A stretch of DNA of 64,000 nucleotides from Candidatus Ozemibacter sibiricus (GTDB lineage Bacteria > Muiribacteriota > Ozemobacteria > Ozemobacterales > Ozemobacteraceae). The stretch spans positions 310,001 through 374,000 of the forward strand of contig QOQW01000001.1 in NCBI GenBank assembly GCA_003327425.1. Reading direction: 5' to 3'. Numbering within the stretch: the first letter of the stretch is position 1; the number at the start of each line of letters is the position of its first letter. The notes below the pieces were generated by a model. The model worked only from the letters and a program-made list of their open reading frames with translations. It searched no databases and had not been told where the DNA came from. Position numbers and translations under genes: made by a program. Below, one piece after another: positions 49,850-56,825 of this stretch.

Positions 49850-51187
49850 TTATTGTTCGTGCAAGACGCGGAACTGGGCTTTGATGCGCTGCACCTTCTC
49901 GACCTGCTTGGGTGTGACCACCAGCTTGTTCAGGTCGCGCAGCACGTTGGTCCCGCAGTGGATCTCGCCCATGGCGGTGTGATAGGGGGTGTCATCGATG
50001 AAATGGACGATATTGCCCTGGGCGCGGAAGCGGGCCTCGATGAGCTTGTCGAAGGGTTTGAAATAGGTGGCTGGCACCAGCAGGTGGTTGCGCAGCACGG
50101 TCAGATTGACCACCCCGGGGAGGTAGGCATGGCAGCTCGATGGCCGGGCTCCGTTGTACCCTTCATAGACGCAGGGCCACGCCACTTCGGCGAAATCGCG
50201 GTCGGGGTCGTTGGTCACCTTGCGGATGAACTCTTTCAGCTGGCCGACATTCTGTTCGATGATCTCGGCGATCTTGTAGTTCAACTCGATGAAATCGCCT
50301 TCGGCGGTGCCACGGCCCGCATTGGGATCGGTGTACTGCTGGTTGAGCACGGCCTTCACCCGCAACAGGAAACTGCGGTCGCTGCTGTTGAGAGTGGCAA
50401 ACTCGCTGTCGGGCGCTTTGGCGATCAGATCGAGCGCCAGCTGCGGATCGGCGCGGACGATGCTGTAGCCGCCTGGAGCATGAGCGGTCGGGATGAACAT
50501 CAGATATTCATCGATGTGGCCGACGCTGAGCCAGCGGGTGTCGGGGTTGAACATGCGGCCGGCGTAGCCCCATTTCTCGAGGTAGGCCTTGCACTGGCTG
50601 GTAATTGTGTTGCCGGCCACCAGCACGTCGTCGAAAGGAGTCACTTCGAGGTTGCCGCCGTAGTCGCCATGGGCCTGGGCCGTGGCAGGGTTCTTGAAAT
50701 AGACCAGATCCCAGAGTTTGGCGAGCGCGGGCGGCAGGCCGCCCAGGCCGCGGCCACGCACGGAGTCGAAAACGGCGGGCACATACTCGTTGGTGCCCTT
50801 TTTGCGGGCCGAGCACAGCTCCATGCAATCCTGGACCCATTGGTCGGAGCTCTGGAAGACCGGGTTGACTTCGACATACTTGGCCGCGTCAGCCGCGGAA
50901 ATGCCCAGCTGGGAAATCGGATTGCCGCCGGAGGAGATGATGTGGAGCTTGATGCGATCAGCTTCCGACAGATTCTCGACCTCGTTGATCTCTTTGATCA
51001 CGTTGAACAGGTCTTTGACAAACCGTGCGGTCGAGTAGCTGTGGACGACGAGCACCTTCTGGGGGGCGTTGTTGTAGCTGACGAACTTGATGCGGTCGAT
51101 CGCCTCGAGGCTTTCGGCTGCCCACACGGCCGTGCAACAGGACCACAGTACCACCAAAACCAGGGCCAGGATCTGTCTTCCGCTCAT
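49850..51187 (-). CDS. Secreted protein-arginine deiminase (animal/cyanobacterial PAD type)
   Basis: This 445-residue protein has a signal peptide (ILALVLVVLWSCCTAVWA) and then a PAD catalytic core. All four catalytic residues of human PADs can be matched. D120 is in QWVQDCMEL (human WMQDEME), H224 and D226 are in WLSVGHIDEYLMFIP (human WLSVGHVDEFLSFVP), and C411 is in GEIHCGTNV (human GEVHCGTNV). Further matches are VFDSVRGRGL and GNLEVTPFD. The family converts peptidyl-arginine to citrulline, usually with calcium. It lacks the first immunoglobulin-like domain of animal PADs, as bacterial members do. It is distinct from the Porphyromonas PPAD fold. AAGGAG is six bases before the ATG. It lies downstream of the Cys-module sigma gene with its own promoter. 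Confidence 0.9.
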   Translation of the reverse strand: MSGRQILALVLVVLWSCCTAVWAAESLEAIDRIKFVSYNNAPQKVLVVHSYSTARFVKDLFNVIKEINEVENLSEADRIKLHIISSGGNPISQLGISAADAAKYVEVNPVFQSSDQWVQDCMELCSARKKGTNEYVPAVFDSVRGRGLGGLPPALAKLWDLVYFKNPATAQAHGDYGGNLEVTPFDDVLVAGNTITSQCKAYLEKWGYAGRMFNPDTRWLSVGHIDEYLMFIPTAHAPGGYSIVRADPQLALDLIAKAPDSEFATLNSSDRSFLLRVKAVLNQQYTDPNAGRGTAEGDFIELNYKIAEIIEQNVGQLKEFIRKVTNDPDRDFAEVAWPCVYEGYNGARPSSCHAYLPGVVNLTVLRNHLLVPATYFKPFDKLIEARFRAQGNIVHFIDDTPYHTAMGEIHCGTNVLRDLNKLVVTPKQVEKVQRIKAQFRVLHEQ

Positions 51188-51380: not shown

Positions 51381-53018
51381 TCAGAGGAAATCCTTCATGT
51401 TCGCGACGAATTCGTGGGTTTTCAGTTCTTCGAGGGCCTGGGCCAGCAGTTGCCGGGCCCGTTCGCGACTGATGCCCATCCGGCGTCCGATTTCGGCGAG
51501 GCTGAGCTGTTCCTCCCGGAACCCGTAGAACCATTCGGCGACTTCCTTCAGGCGGGGTGGCAGCAGATCGAGAGCCTTGCGACAGGCTTCGACCTTGGCT
51601 TTCTCCAAAGCTTCTTCCTCGGGGGAAAGGGCGGTTCTGTCGGCAATGTAGTATTCCGCACCAGCCTCTTCGTCGTCGTCGTTCCGCTTGGCTTCGATGG
51701 AGATGGGGGTTTCGGTGACCCGCAGCACTTCGAGGATTTTTTCTTCCTCGAGGCCGAGAACCTTCGAGAGTTCGGTCAGGGTCGGGGGGCGCTGCAGGTC
51801 GCCCTGCAGGTCGTTGATCGCCCGGCGGATCTTGTGGGCGATGGCCAGCAAATGATGGGGGACGCGGATCACACGCGCCTGGTCGCTGATCGCTTGTTGC
51901 ATGTAGTGCCGTATCCAGTAGGCGGCGTAGGTGGAGAACCGGTAGCCAAGGGTCCAGTCGAATTTGGAAATGGCCTTGATCAAGCCGATGTTCCCCTCCT
52001 GGATGAGGTCCATCAAACTGAGGCCCCGATTGGTGAAGGAACTGGCCACTCGCACCACCAATTTGAGATTGGCCATCAGGAACAGCTCGGCCGCATCCTT
52101 GTCGCCGGCGATCTTCTTGGCCAGGGCGAGTTCATCTTCGCGCGACAGCGGCTTGCGGGACAGTTCGTTCAGATAGAGTTCGACCAGCCCTTGTCGTCTG
52201 ATCCGCTCCTCGCGCTGCCGTTTGATCCGTTTTCGCTCGAGGATGTCCTCGAACAGCCCTTCATGGAGAATGCCCAGCTCCCAGCCTCGCTGGTAATGGC
52301 AACTGTGGCAGAGGCGGTCGCCGCAGGTGATCTCCAGTTTCTTCTGATCGCCTTTGGGTTCGAAGTATTTGAAGCATCGGATGATCTGGCGTTCTCTGAC
52401 CGGGCACCGCGGATTGGGGCAGGGAAGGACCTCCCAGCAGAAGCGCAATCCCGCGCTGGGAGGGGTCTCGCCATGGGGCCAGGCCGCCTCATCGGCGGGG
52501 CGAACGGTGGCGCCAGGAGCGGTCGGCCGGAGACTGACGACGGCTGTTCCGGGTTCGGAGGCGCTGGTGGGCGCGAGCGCGTCCGGAGCGGCGGCGGTGG
52601 GCGGTGGGCCGGCCGCCGGGTGGGTTGAGGGAGTGGATTCGCCAGGATACGGGGCGGATCTGGAAGGGATTTGGGGCTGGGGGGCGGCCATCGAGCTGGG
52701 AGCGCCTTCCCCCGCGGTCGAGGGCGGCCCCGATTGGAATTCCGGGAGGTCGTTCAGGTCAGGCGTGGCAGGTTCGGTATCGGGAAGAGGCAGTAACGTC
52801 TCGGGCGGCAGGTCCGGTTCATCTTCGAACAAGCTGTCGCCAAGCAGGCCGATTTCCCACCCGAGGCGATAGTGGCATCGTGAACACGGGGCGTAGGGGC
52901 ATTGCTCGATGGTCGGTTCCCCGCCTTGTTCTTCGAACCAGGTCCAGCAGCGGCGAATCCGGGAACGGCGAACCGGACAGTCGTGCCTCTCACAGCGGAA
53001 ACTCTCGAAACAGTACAT
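51381..53018 (-). CDS. Sigma-70-family factor with two N-terminal seven-cysteine modules
   Basis: This 545-residue protein has two parts. The C-terminal ~270 residues form a primary-like sigma factor: YLNELSRKPLSREDELALAK (region 1.2), NLKLVVRVASSF and LIQEGNIGLIKAISKFDW (2.1-2.2), YRFSTYAAYWIRHYMQQAI (2.3-2.4), region 3, and LSLAEIGRRMGISRERARQL (4.2). The N-terminal part holds two copies of a Cys module, joined by a proline/alanine-rich linker. Module 1 has C3, C9, C14, C24, C40, C45 and C48; module 2 has C194, C200, C205, C215, C232, C237 and C240. Spacings are 6-5-10-16/17-5-3, and both share CPVR, RC and C-HYxRGWExG. The modules may bind zinc or an iron-sulfur cluster or sense redox (inference). 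Confidence 0.9.
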   Translation of the reverse strand: MYCFESFRCERHDCPVRRSRIRRCWTWFEEQGGEPTIEQCPYAPCSRCHYRLGWEIGLLGDSLFEDEPDLPPETLLPLPDTEPATPDLNDLPEFQSGPPSTAGEGAPSSMAAPQPQIPSRSAPYPGESTPSTHPAAGPPPTAAAPDALAPTSASEPGTAVVSLRPTAPGATVRPADEAAWPHGETPPSAGLRFCWEVLPCPNPRCPVRERQIIRCFKYFEPKGDQKKLEITCGDRLCHSCHYQRGWELGILHEGLFEDILERKRIKRQREERIRRQGLVELYLNELSRKPLSREDELALAKKIAGDKDAAELFLMANLKLVVRVASSFTNRGLSLMDLIQEGNIGLIKAISKFDWTLGYRFSTYAAYWIRHYMQQAISDQARVIRVPHHLLAIAHKIRRAINDLQGDLQRPPTLTELSKVLGLEEEKILEVLRVTETPISIEAKRNDDDEEAGAEYYIADRTALSPEEEALEKAKVEACRKALDLLPPRLKEVAEWFYGFREEQLSLAEIGRRMGISRERARQLLAQALEELKTHEFVANMKDFL

Positions 53019-53084: not shown

Positions 53085-53864
53085 TCATGCGGCTGGACTG
53101 GTCACCGCCGGCGGAGGCAGGTCTTCTTCCTCGGTGAGTTTGAGGAAGATGGACTCGAGGTCGGAGCCGGGAGACCGGGCTTGCTCACGAAGAGCATCGA
53201 TGGTGCCGAGCGCGACCAGGGTGCCGTGATGGATGATGCCGATCCGGTCGCAGAGATCCTCGGCGACGGACAGGGTGTGGGTGGTCAGGAAGATGGTCTT
53301 GCCGCGGCGGACCAGATCTTTGAAGAAGTCGCGCACGATCTTGACGCTGCGCGGGTCGAGGCCCACCGTCGGTTCGTCGACGACCAGGATGTCGGGGTCG
53401 TGCAGCAGGGCCGCCGACATGGCGACCTTCTGCTTCATGCCGTGCGAGAAGCTTTCGATGAGTTCATCCCGCCATTCCCAGAGGGTGAACCGATGGAGCA
53501 TCTCCTCGCCGCGCTGGCGGGCCTGCCCTTCCGGCAAGGCATAGAGGCCGGCCACGAAATCGAAATACTCGAGGGGCGTCAGTTTCTCGTAGAGGTAGGG
53601 TCGGTCGGGAACATAGCCGATGCGGGATTTGGCGATCTCCGGTTGGGTCAGCAGATCGGCTCCGCCAATGGTCACCGTGCCGGTCGTGGGTTTGAGGATG
53701 CCGGTCAGGATCCTGATCAGGGTCGTCTTGCCGGCCCCGTTGGGGCCCAGGAAGCCGAACAATTCGCCGGCGGGGATGGTCAGGTCGATGCCTTTGAGGG
53801 CCTCGAAAGTGCCATAGCGTTTGCGGATGTCCTTCAGGACGATGACGGGGTCACTCGGGTTCAT
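53085..53864 (-). CDS. ABC-2 type exporter ATP-binding protein
   Basis: This 259-residue ATPase has Walker A GPNGAGKTT, Q-loop replaced by a DRPYLYEKLT segment, signature FSHGMKQKVAMSAALLHDP, Walker B ILVVDEPTVGLDP and H-loop TTHTLSVAEDL. This is the typical layout of ABC-2 exporter ATPases. It overlaps the permease gene by 14 bases, so the two form a transporter. The cargo is unknown. It lies just upstream of the sigma-factor gene, on the same strand. Confidence 0.93.
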   Translation of the reverse strand: MNPSDPVIVLKDIRKRYGTFEALKGIDLTIPAGELFGFLGPNGAGKTTLIRILTGILKPTTGTVTIGGADLLTQPEIAKSRIGYVPDRPYLYEKLTPLEYFDFVAGLYALPEGQARQRGEEMLHRFTLWEWRDELIESFSHGMKQKVAMSAALLHDPDILVVDEPTVGLDPRSVKIVRDFFKDLVRRGKTIFLTTHTLSVAEDLCDRIGIIHHGTLVALGTIDALREQARSPGSDLESIFLKLTEEEDLPPPAVTSPAA

Positions 53865-55566
53865 ACCGCTCGATGGCTTCCTGTCCCTGGCGCAAGGGAA
53901 TGTAGACCCAGGCGATGGTGCAGATCAGCAGCAGAAAGAACGAAAGACCGATGAAGACTTTCGCCGCGGGCTGGGTGAGAGGGTAGAACCGGATGAAATA
54001 CAGGCGGAACAAGGGATAGGCCTGGAGGAGGAGCAGGTTGACGACATAGACGGCGCTGAGGATCATGAAGACGAATCCGCCGAACGAACCGGCGATCTTG
54101 AGAGGATTGTCGGAATCGAAGCGGGCATAGAGCGCCCCCAGGCCAATGGCCAGGGCGGTGATGACAATGGCCATCAACGATACATTCAAATAACTGAGCC
54201 AGAATAGCAGGGGGTGGGTGACCTTGAACAGCATATTGGAAATATAACAGAGAATCAGGCCAAGCCCCAAGATCGGCCCCAGGTAGAAGAAAAATTTCAC
54301 CCACATCAGTCGGGAGGGCTGCAGCGGGGAGGCTTTGACCGCCCAGAAGGCCCGCCCTTCCAGGCTGATCGACGGAAAGACGAAGCGCATCGAAATGGCC
54401 GCCAGGATGAACCCGATGAACGGCCCGTTGAAATAGACCATCGAATCGTTGATTTCCCCAGAATACAGCGACGGAAGGTCTTTCAGAGGGAGGATGGCCA
54501 GATTGTACCCATAGACGAACACGATGGCGGCCATCATGAAGATCTGGCTGAAAATGGCGGGGTCGCGCAGGAAGATGGTGATTTCCTTTTCCACGACGAC
54601 CCGATGCTCGGGGCGCAATGTACGGAATGGCAGGATCAACGCGCGGCGGACCCATTCGAGGCTGAGCACCTGATTTTCGACGGCTTCCAGCGAGGCCTGC
54701 CAGCTGGTCAGGTAGAATCGTTGCGCGGCGACGTGCAGGAGCACCAGGCCGGCCAGCAGGGTCGCCGCCAGGGGCCAGGCCGTGGTCAGGCTTCCGATCA
54801 GGTTGCCATCGAACAAGGTCAGCGAGGCTTGTTGGATCCAGGCGGAGGGGAAATACTCCATGGTCGGAGCCCGGAGATTCAGAATGTAGCTCGAAATCGA
54901 GGAAAAATACCGAGGGTTGAGGAGTTTCTCGGGTTCGAGAAACCGGAAGAAGATGATCATCATCGCCAGCACCAGGGCCGACAGGAACTGGAACACCTTG
55001 CGCATCTGCCGGATGGGAAAGAAGATCGACAGGATCAACGCCAGCAGAGCGCCCAGGATGTTGGGCAGCAGGAGATACATGCCGAGGTAGCACAGAAAGA
55101 CCAGATACCCCCACCACGGCGATTTGAGGGCGCTGGCGAAGGCGAAGAACATGGGGGTGAAAAAGGCCAGCACCATCCACGAACTTTCCGCCAGCATCAG
55201 TATGAAGCGCGACCAGAAGATGTGGGTGATGCGAATGGGGGAAGCGATCAGCAGGCGGATTTCGTCATCCAGATAGAAGGCGGAAAATGCGGCGATGATG
55301 CTCGAAAACACCACCATGAAAAACAAGGCCAGGAAGATCATCTCCAGGAAGCGCGCCACCAGCAGGTTGCCGATCATGGGGCCGACGATCGGGCCCAGCA
55401 TCGGGGCCCGGGCGACGTGGGCCAGGAAGCGGTACAGGCCGTAGTACAAGGCCAGGGCGACCAGCAGGCCGCCCACCACCAGGGCGATCAACACCTTCGG
55501 GTGTCGCTTGCGCAGCTGGCGCCGCAGGCCCTGGACAGCCGGGATCAGCAGGAAGGACGCCGTCAT
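53851..55566 (-). CDS. ABC-2 type permease
   Basis: This 571-residue integral membrane protein from ATG 55566 (MTASFLLIPAVQGLRRQL) has about 12-14 hydrophobic segments in two halves. It corresponds to the large 'putative ABC exporter' permease type, which is a fused two-half permease rather than the usual ~250-residue form. Segments such as IFLALFFMVVFSSIIAAFSA and VFMILSAVYVVNLLLL are typical. The ribosome site is weak; a longer reading from 55926 overlaps the Nudix gene in another frame and is rejected. It overlaps the ATPase gene by 14 bases. Confidence 0.87.
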   Translation of the reverse strand: MTASFLLIPAVQGLRRQLRKRHPKVLIALVVGGLLVALALYYGLYRFLAHVARAPMLGPIVGPMIGNLLVARFLEMIFLALFFMVVFSSIIAAFSAFYLDDEIRLLIASPIRITHIFWSRFILMLAESSWMVLAFFTPMFFAFASALKSPWWGYLVFLCYLGMYLLLPNILGALLALILSIFFPIRQMRKVFQFLSALVLAMMIIFFRFLEPEKLLNPRYFSSISSYILNLRAPTMEYFPSAWIQQASLTLFDGNLIGSLTTAWPLAATLLAGLVLLHVAAQRFYLTSWQASLEAVENQVLSLEWVRRALILPFRTLRPEHRVVVEKEITIFLRDPAIFSQIFMMAAIVFVYGYNLAILPLKDLPSLYSGEINDSMVYFNGPFIGFILAAISMRFVFPSISLEGRAFWAVKASPLQPSRLMWVKFFFYLGPILGLGLILCYISNMLFKVTHPLLFWLSYLNVSLMAIVITALAIGLGALYARFDSDNPLKIAGSFGGFVFMILSAVYVVNLLLLQAYPLFRLYFIRFYPLTQPAAKVFIGLSFFLLLICTIAWVYIPLRQGQEAIERYEPE

Positions 55567-55579
55567 GGTCTGCGGCCGG

Positions 55580-56245
55580 CTACCACACCAGGGGGTGCCA
55601 GTCAGGTAGCGGGGCAGGTCGGGGACGGAAGCGGTAGCGCTGGCCTGGCGGAACCGGCTCGAGCAGGCCCAGCCGCATGCCGCGTTCGATGGGATCGTCG
55701 GCGGCCTGTCCCAGGATCGAGCGATGCAGGGCGACCAGCGCGCCCGGCTCGAACCCTTCCGGCCAGAGGCGCCGCCCCACGATGGCCGTGGCCGCCTGCC
55801 AGCGCAGATGCTCGGCGATCTCATGGATGAGATCGGCATGGTCGAATGCCATGGCGGGTGGCGCGGTGAGCGGATACCACCCGGCATGGCTGGCGTCGTC
55901 CCCGCCGCGGGGGTGGAGGTCGTCACCCTTGACCAGGGCGCCGAAGATCAGGGTGATGCAGCGGGCGCGGGGATCGCGACCCACCTTGCCCGCCGCCATC
56001 AGCGGCGCGAGGTCGAGGCCAGAGATGCCGGTTTCCTCGCCCAGTTCACGGGCCGCCCCGGCCACCGGTTCTTCGTCCATGTCGAGGAACCCGCCCGGCA
56101 GCGCGAACCGCCCGGCGAACGGTTCATGGCCGCGCTGGATCAGCAGGATCTCGATGCCAGCGGCGGCTGGTCGCAGGACGGCGGCATCGACCGTGACCGC
56201 CGGACGGGGATAGGGGTAGGTGTACCCCTGCGATTCACCGGACAT
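55580..56245 (-). CDS. Nudix hydrolase
   Basis: This 221-residue protein has a complete Nudix box: GGFLDMDEEPVAGAARELGEETGI, split here as GGFLDMDEEPVAGAAREL and GEETGI, matching Gx5Ex7REUxEExGU. The N-terminal region (VTVDAAVLRPAAAGIEILLIQRG) is typical of ADP-ribose pyrophosphatase-like or NrtR-type members. The C-terminal ~80 residues contain GRRLWPEGFEPGALVALHRS, as in the winged-helix-like tail of NrtR-related proteins, but a DNA-binding role is not certain. It overlaps the DsbA-like gene by 11 bases and precedes the ABC-2 genes by 13 bases, so all four may be one transcript. Confidence 0.88.
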   Translation of the reverse strand: MSGESQGYTYPYPRPAVTVDAAVLRPAAAGIEILLIQRGHEPFAGRFALPGGFLDMDEEPVAGAARELGEETGISGLDLAPLMAAGKVGRDPRARCITLIFGALVKGDDLHPRGGDDASHAGWYPLTAPPAMAFDHADLIHEIAEHLRWQAATAIVGRRLWPEGFEPGALVALHRSILGQAADDPIERGMRLGLLEPVPPGQRYRFRPRPAPLPDWHPLVW

Positions 56246-56825
56246 GCAGGTTCAAGAAATTCTGCACGCCCCGGCGGTCGAGGACCCCGGCCAGTCGATC
56301 CTGCCCGCAAACCAGCGCAGGGATGACTCTGATGTGCTCGGTGTCCCAGAGCTGGAGGCGTTCCTTGGCTTGCGACAAGGTGGCCGGAGAGGCCAGGGCT
56401 TTGGTCAGGGGCAGGGTGTCGATCCCTTCGGATTGCAGATGGTTCAACAACGTCTGGGAATGGCCGAAATCGAGGCCCAGCTCGAAGATGCCTTTGAAGA
56501 CCCCGGACAGATATTCCTGACGACCGATGCCTTCGTAGAAGAGCATACCCTGGTGCGGAATCAGAGAAAACGCCTCCGCGGCCACCGGGCGGATGGTCAG
56601 GCCGAGGGCTTTGCCCTTCTCGGCCAGGGCCTGCCACCGAACGTCGCTCCACAGCTTCCGCCCCAGAAGGTCGGGTTGGCTGGGAGGGTTGGGGCCAACG
56701 GCCAGAACCTCGAGCGGAAATTCCTTCTCGTGGAATTCCTTCTGGAGGATCTCCCAGGCGAGGTAGCTGTACGGGCAATAGAAATCAAAATAGAAACGGA
56801 CTGCTGACTCCGCTGCTTCCGCCAT
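56235..56825 (-). CDS. DsbA-family protein (FrnE/HCCA-isomerase-like)
   Basis: This 196-residue thioredoxin-fold protein has FYFDFYCPYSYLAWEIL at the N-terminus. The active-site motif is CPYS, with only the first cysteine, as in FrnE and 2-hydroxychromene-2-carboxylate isomerase relatives rather than redox-active DsbA (CxxC). The C-terminal HIRVIPALVCGQDRLAGVLD contains the cis-proline loop. There is no signal peptide, so the protein is cytoplasmic. The substrate is unknown. It begins 39 bases after the tRNA-Val 3' end on the same strand. Confidence 0.82.
   Translation of the reverse strand: MAEAAESAVRFYFDFYCPYSYLAWEILQKEFHEKEFPLEVLAVGPNPPSQPDLLGRKLWSDVRWQALAEKGKALGLTIRPVAAEAFSLIPHQGMLFYEGIGRQEYLSGVFKGIFELGLDFGHSQTLLNHLQSEGIDTLPLTKALASPATLSQAKERLQLWDTEHIRVIPALVCGQDRLAGVLDRRGVQNFLNLHVR

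Follow-up and report, generated by a model that had tools for sequence, protein, structure and literature searches.

A sigma-70-type factor with two N-terminal CW-type cysteine modules in a Riflebacteria family

What is a sigma-70-type factor doing with two cysteine-rich modules at its N-terminus, and could such modules let it respond to a signal by itself? The question is raised by one gene of the window, that is, the whole stretch of 64,000 nucleotides that was analysed. The original prediction saw two seven-cysteine modules of almost identical spacing (6-5-10-16/17-5-3) in place of region 1.1, proposed redox, zinc or Fe-S sensing with no separate anti-sigma factor, and knew of no described sigma factor with this duplicated module.

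The gene and its sigma core

The gene is an open reading frame with an ATG start that encodes 545 aa, and its layout is as follows (all on the minus strand).

51381..53018, minus strand: whole gene, 545 aa, sigma-70-type factor with two N-terminal CW-type cysteine modules
52821..53015, minus strand: module 1, residues 2-66, with invariant Cys 3, 9, 14, 24, 45 and 48 and variable Cys 40
52443..52820, minus strand: variable Pro/Ala-rich linker, residues 67-192
52245..52442, minus strand: module 2, residues 193-258, with invariant Cys 194, 200, 205, 215, 237 and 240 and variable Cys 232
52107..52184, minus strand: sigma-70 region 1.2, residues 279-304, weak, with a Pfam score under the cut-off
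51873..52076, minus strand: sigma-70 region 2, residues 315-382, in which region 2.4 reads YWIRHYMQQAI (WWIRQAITRAI in the RpoD of the same genome)
51615..51833, minus strand: sigma-70 region 3, residues 396-468
51420..51575, minus strand: sigma-70 region 4, residues 482-533, retaining RERARQ, the -35 recognition motif

The Pfam models Sigma70_r2, r3 and r4 match at the residues given with 65.5, 43.0 and 45.8 bits, respectively, all above their cut-offs, which places the protein in the sigma-70 family. Region 1.1 was absent in the same search and neither cysteine module was matched, so the modules do stand ahead of a sigma-70 core (regions 2-4) from which region 1.1 is missing, as had been predicted. 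The score against TIGR02393, the RpoD model, is 208 bits for a cut-off of 354 and thus below the level of a primary sigma factor; MzaA, the anti-phage sigma of NF041931, is matched with 193.8 bits for a cut-off of 800. In a tree, the sigma cores of the family form a single clade on a long stem (support 1.0), apart from RpoD, whose gene adjoins dnaG in this genome, and apart from a second sigma factor encoded elsewhere in the genome.

The DNA-recognition elements of the core give some indication of the promoters it may read. All members carry YW-[IV]-[RK]-[HYN]-YMQ in region 2.4 in place of the WWIRQAIT of the genome's own RpoD, changes that presumably correspond to W433Y, Q437H/Y/N and T440Q in E. 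coli numbering. In E. coli sigma70, Q437 and T440 contact position -12. Region 4.2 retains RERxRQ. The changed contacts in region 2.4 together with the retained motif in region 4.2 suggest, at the level of sequence, that the double-module sigma factor reads a modified -10 element together with the usual -35 element.

Among named records, the closest relatives are from Candidatus Riflebacteria / Ozemobacteraceae. Both modules are found in 20 of the 24 genomes of the family; the gene is cut at a contig edge in one more (G022) and absent from the remaining three (G006, G013, G019). Neither the 16 genomes that represent other families of the phylum nor 17 more distant ones carry the modules, and the double-module sigma factor is so far confined to one Riflebacteria family. 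An apparent horizontal transfer to "Methylomirabilis" was rejected since the copy is that of G009, a genome of the same family; the record concerned (DYKG01000002.1, locus L015) is titled Candidatus Methylomirabilis, a title that is probably wrong.

A duplicated module and its relatives

The seven cysteines of the modules lie at residues 3, 9, 14, 24, 40, 45 and 48 and at residues 194, 200, 205, 215, 232, 237 and 240, with spacings of 6-5-10-16-5-3 and 6-5-10-17-5-3, respectively, and the sigma part of the protein holds one further cysteine, Cys479. Aligned end to end, the two modules share 28 of 66 residues (42%; BLAST E 9e-18), which establishes true internal homology and bears out the two-copy arrangement first proposed. 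Since the sigma gene is full length and conserved, the cysteine pattern is not a product of chance.

An alignment of orthologues refined the count of cysteines. Both modules are conserved, and six cysteines of each are invariant (17 of 17 rows for module 1 and 20 of 20 for module 2), but the fifth is not: C40 is replaced by lysine in three of the 17 rows, and C232 is absent or shifted in six of the 20, by one position in two of these. The seven cysteines originally described are thus six invariant ones and one variable one. The linker varies freely, with a Cys-to-Cys distance between modules of 48 to 147 aa. In a tree of the modules, all copies of module 1 form one group and all copies of module 2 another (support 0.62 and 0.84, and 0.91 for both modules together), and the duplication is therefore older than the spread of the family.

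Searching with the module alone for other fusions, as the original prediction had proposed, proved productive. Single sigma modules matched no Pfam or NCBIfam model, and with NF045718, the two_CW_domain (cut-off 35 bits), none of 24 sigma modules gave a match at E <= 10. A profile built from these 24 modules and run against 247 genomes sampled around G060, a genome labelled Desulfofervidaceae, did match signalling proteins, with E of 3.4e-7 to 4e-3, namely HAMP/PAS histidine kinases, one chemoreceptor, GGDEF cyclases, and one PAS protein. A second sampling around G059 returned identical best matches, as the genomes of both sets are largely shared. The receptor modules carry the same six invariant cysteines as the sigma modules, and the search also works in reverse: with an HMM of receptor modules only, almost every sigma module in the fetched loci is found again and there is no other match below E 0.2, and a receptor profile free of sigma sequences, run through all of genome G000, has the two sigma modules as its sole matches (E 5e-5 and 8e-4).

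Profile-profile comparison with hhalign connects the sigma modules to the receptor modules (probability 96.7, E 3.7e-10) and the receptor modules to the NF045718 sequences (probability 98.8, E 5e-17), and NF045718 is matched at some level by all 14 receptor modules. The direct comparison of sigma modules with two-CW sequences was not significant, so that the relation between them runs via the receptor modules. Given significant profile similarity and six invariant cysteines in common order, the sigma modules fall within a superfamily made up of receptor CW and two-CW domains, and we regard them, on this sequence evidence, as divergent relatives of a widespread CW-type domain related to NF045718, an NCBIfam entry with no stated function. 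That the N-terminus serves as a passive linker or stands in for region 1.1 and binds no ligand, its CW likeness being convergence of cysteine-rich sequences, would agree with the missing Pfam and NCBIfam matches of individual modules and with the non-significant direct comparison, yet is hardly credible in view of significant reciprocal profile matches that span the common cysteine order and of cysteines kept strictly while the linker varies.

Fusions of CW-type modules to DNA-binding domains of the XRE and MerR types occur as well. Two such proteins are short one-component regulators in which the CW module is joined to a MerR-HTH (locus L248) or to an XRE-HTH (L231), and L164 encodes an XRE-HTH with a cut two-CW domain. 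One genome from the window's own family encodes a chemoreceptor-like protein in which a two-CW domain lies at the C-terminus (L155). No relatives of the module were found in viral contigs and plasmids, and 296 genomes around a Spirochaeta-labelled centre gave zero module matches. A DNA pattern scan for W-E-x3-C-...-C-P gave mostly chance matches, along with a DinG/XPD-like helicase (L180, L187, L194). The WEKxCCDKDSCP segment of this helicase has a superficial likeness to the module and was rejected as unrelated; its cysteines are probably the Fe-S site of the helicase.

The module is thus not unique to this sigma factor. The CW-type module belongs to a known, uncharacterised family, and its fusion to a sigma factor appears to be new.

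What the modules may do

AlphaFold2 modelled the module from a 19-row alignment as a compact all-helical domain with a mean pLDDT of 92.3; the whole protein, modelled from its single sequence, gave a pLDDT of 46. When the secondary structure of the module model is set against the sequence, most of the invariant cysteines are placed in a loop or at the start of a helix, where metal ligands often sit. Foldseek with the module model returned no PDB or BFVD match, and a sequence search of PDB gave no relatives; the candidate ORF904 (E 0.04) covers half of the module only and was rejected as partial. The literature searched holds no solved structure and no stated function or ligand for any CW domain, and papers dealing with CW domains, or with sigma factors of the Fe-S type, offered nothing useful.

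The reading we prefer, and to which we would give about an even chance, is that the protein is an alternative sigma-70 factor, distinct from the housekeeping one, in which the two CW modules hold a metal centre (Fe-S or Zn) and control the activity of the protein. In RpoD, region 1.1 packs on sigma regions 2/4 or on RNA polymerase. Here, two CW-type six-cysteine modules with a flexible linker between them would take its place, each holding through its invariant cysteines a metal centre, Fe-S and Zn being indistinguishable here. The redox or occupancy state of that centre may alter the packing of the N-terminus against those same sigma regions or the polymerase, and the sigma factor would then be its own sensor, turning on promoters with a -10 element other than the one that RpoD reads. 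We infer Fe-S/Zn binding and sensing from the cysteine pattern and its relatives; a sensory role fits since like modules occur in one-component regulators and, in sensor proteins, on the cytoplasmic side. That a sigma factor with regions 2, 3, and 4 directly senses redox, oxygen or metal by way of two N-terminal metal-binding CW modules, a layout that we did not find described, is put forward more tentatively.

CW domains could also be structural or protein-interaction modules, and this leads to the main rival, in which the sigma modules are structural domains with permanently bound zinc or other metal that dock the factor on a partner or RNA polymerase and sense nothing. The invariant cysteines could hold a structural metal, the module fold is compact and confident, and two copies on a variable linker resemble an interaction platform. 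Against this, the CW relatives are placed next to an HTH or in the stretch that joins HAMP to the output domain, the usual sites of signal input, even if docking is possible there too, and on the whole we think the structural role less likely than gating.

The genes around the sigma gene bear on a further possibility. Its immediate neighbours in the window are:

53085..53864, minus strand: ABC transporter ATPase, directly upstream of the sigma gene with a gap of 66 bp
49850..51187, minus strand: PF03068-type protein-arginine deiminase, downstream of the sigma gene

Upstream, the ABC ATPase is accompanied by its membrane subunit, and NUDIX and DSBA-like genes are present in most loci. The membrane-protein ORF as listed (53851-55926, minus strand) starts inside the NUDIX-like ORF (55580-56245) and in reality probably begins further downstream. 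The deiminase has an apparent signal peptide; its gene follows the sigma gene in the window and adjoins it in several relatives as well (L009, L011, L013, L015). The DSBA-family-like protein (56235-56825, minus strand) has CPYS in place of CxxC. No anti-sigma domain or gene was recognisable among the neighbours tested, in line with the absence of a separate anti-sigma factor that had been suggested.

The modules might also respond by thiol-disulfide switching of free cysteines with no metal involved, given that they are rich in cysteine and that a DSBA-family thioredoxin-fold gene belongs to the same conserved cluster. We consider this quite improbable: the cysteine pattern is more suggestive of a metal site than of disulfide pairs, CPYS stands in place of CxxC in the DSBA-like protein, and the family is probably mainly anaerobic, judging from sample types.

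If the modules of this sigma factor are true sensors, a metal or redox centre within the sigma factor itself would decide which promoters RNA polymerase uses. CW-type domains recur across many signalling proteins, and with in vitro transcription as its readout a sigma factor is a simple system in which to identify both ligand and signal.

Comparison with known systems

With RpoD and group 2 sigma-70 factors, the double-module sigma factor has regions 2, 3, and 4 and a weak region 1.2 in common; it differs in having no region 1.1, in forming its own long-branched clade, and in its region 2.4 substitutions. The zinc anti-sigma (ZAS) motif H-x3-C-x2-C does not occur in the modules, which have Pro41 and Gly233 where the histidine is required. 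A sigma factor with a built-in cysteine-rich domain that responds to metal redox state is known from Myxococcus xanthus, CorE / CorE2 (ECF238; PMC3107203, reviewed in PMC8999054). CorE, however, is an ECF factor composed of sigma2 and sigma4 only, with a C-terminal domain, copper as the metal and another cysteine pattern, and the present protein falls outside the CorE-like ECF group by its region 3 and its N-terminal cysteine modules.

The closest likeness of the modules themselves is to the NF045718 two-CW and short CW domains of HAMP kinases, MCPs, and GGDEF proteins, with which they share an aromatic residue and E after the first cysteine, C-x5-C, CP at the third cysteine, (R)C-W/F at the fourth, C-x2-C-x-Y/F near the end, and six invariant cysteines with a variable fifth position. 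The sigma modules are divergent from these, do not have the GT(L/F)C...QG segment, stay below the NF045718 cut-off, and end in GWE-x-G...F, which is absent from the receptor modules; the host protein, too, is different, being a sigma factor. The MerR-CW and XRE-CW regulators resemble it in that a CW-type module is joined directly to a promoter-selecting DNA-binding domain, and differ in carrying an HTH regulator rather than sigma-70 and one module rather than two.
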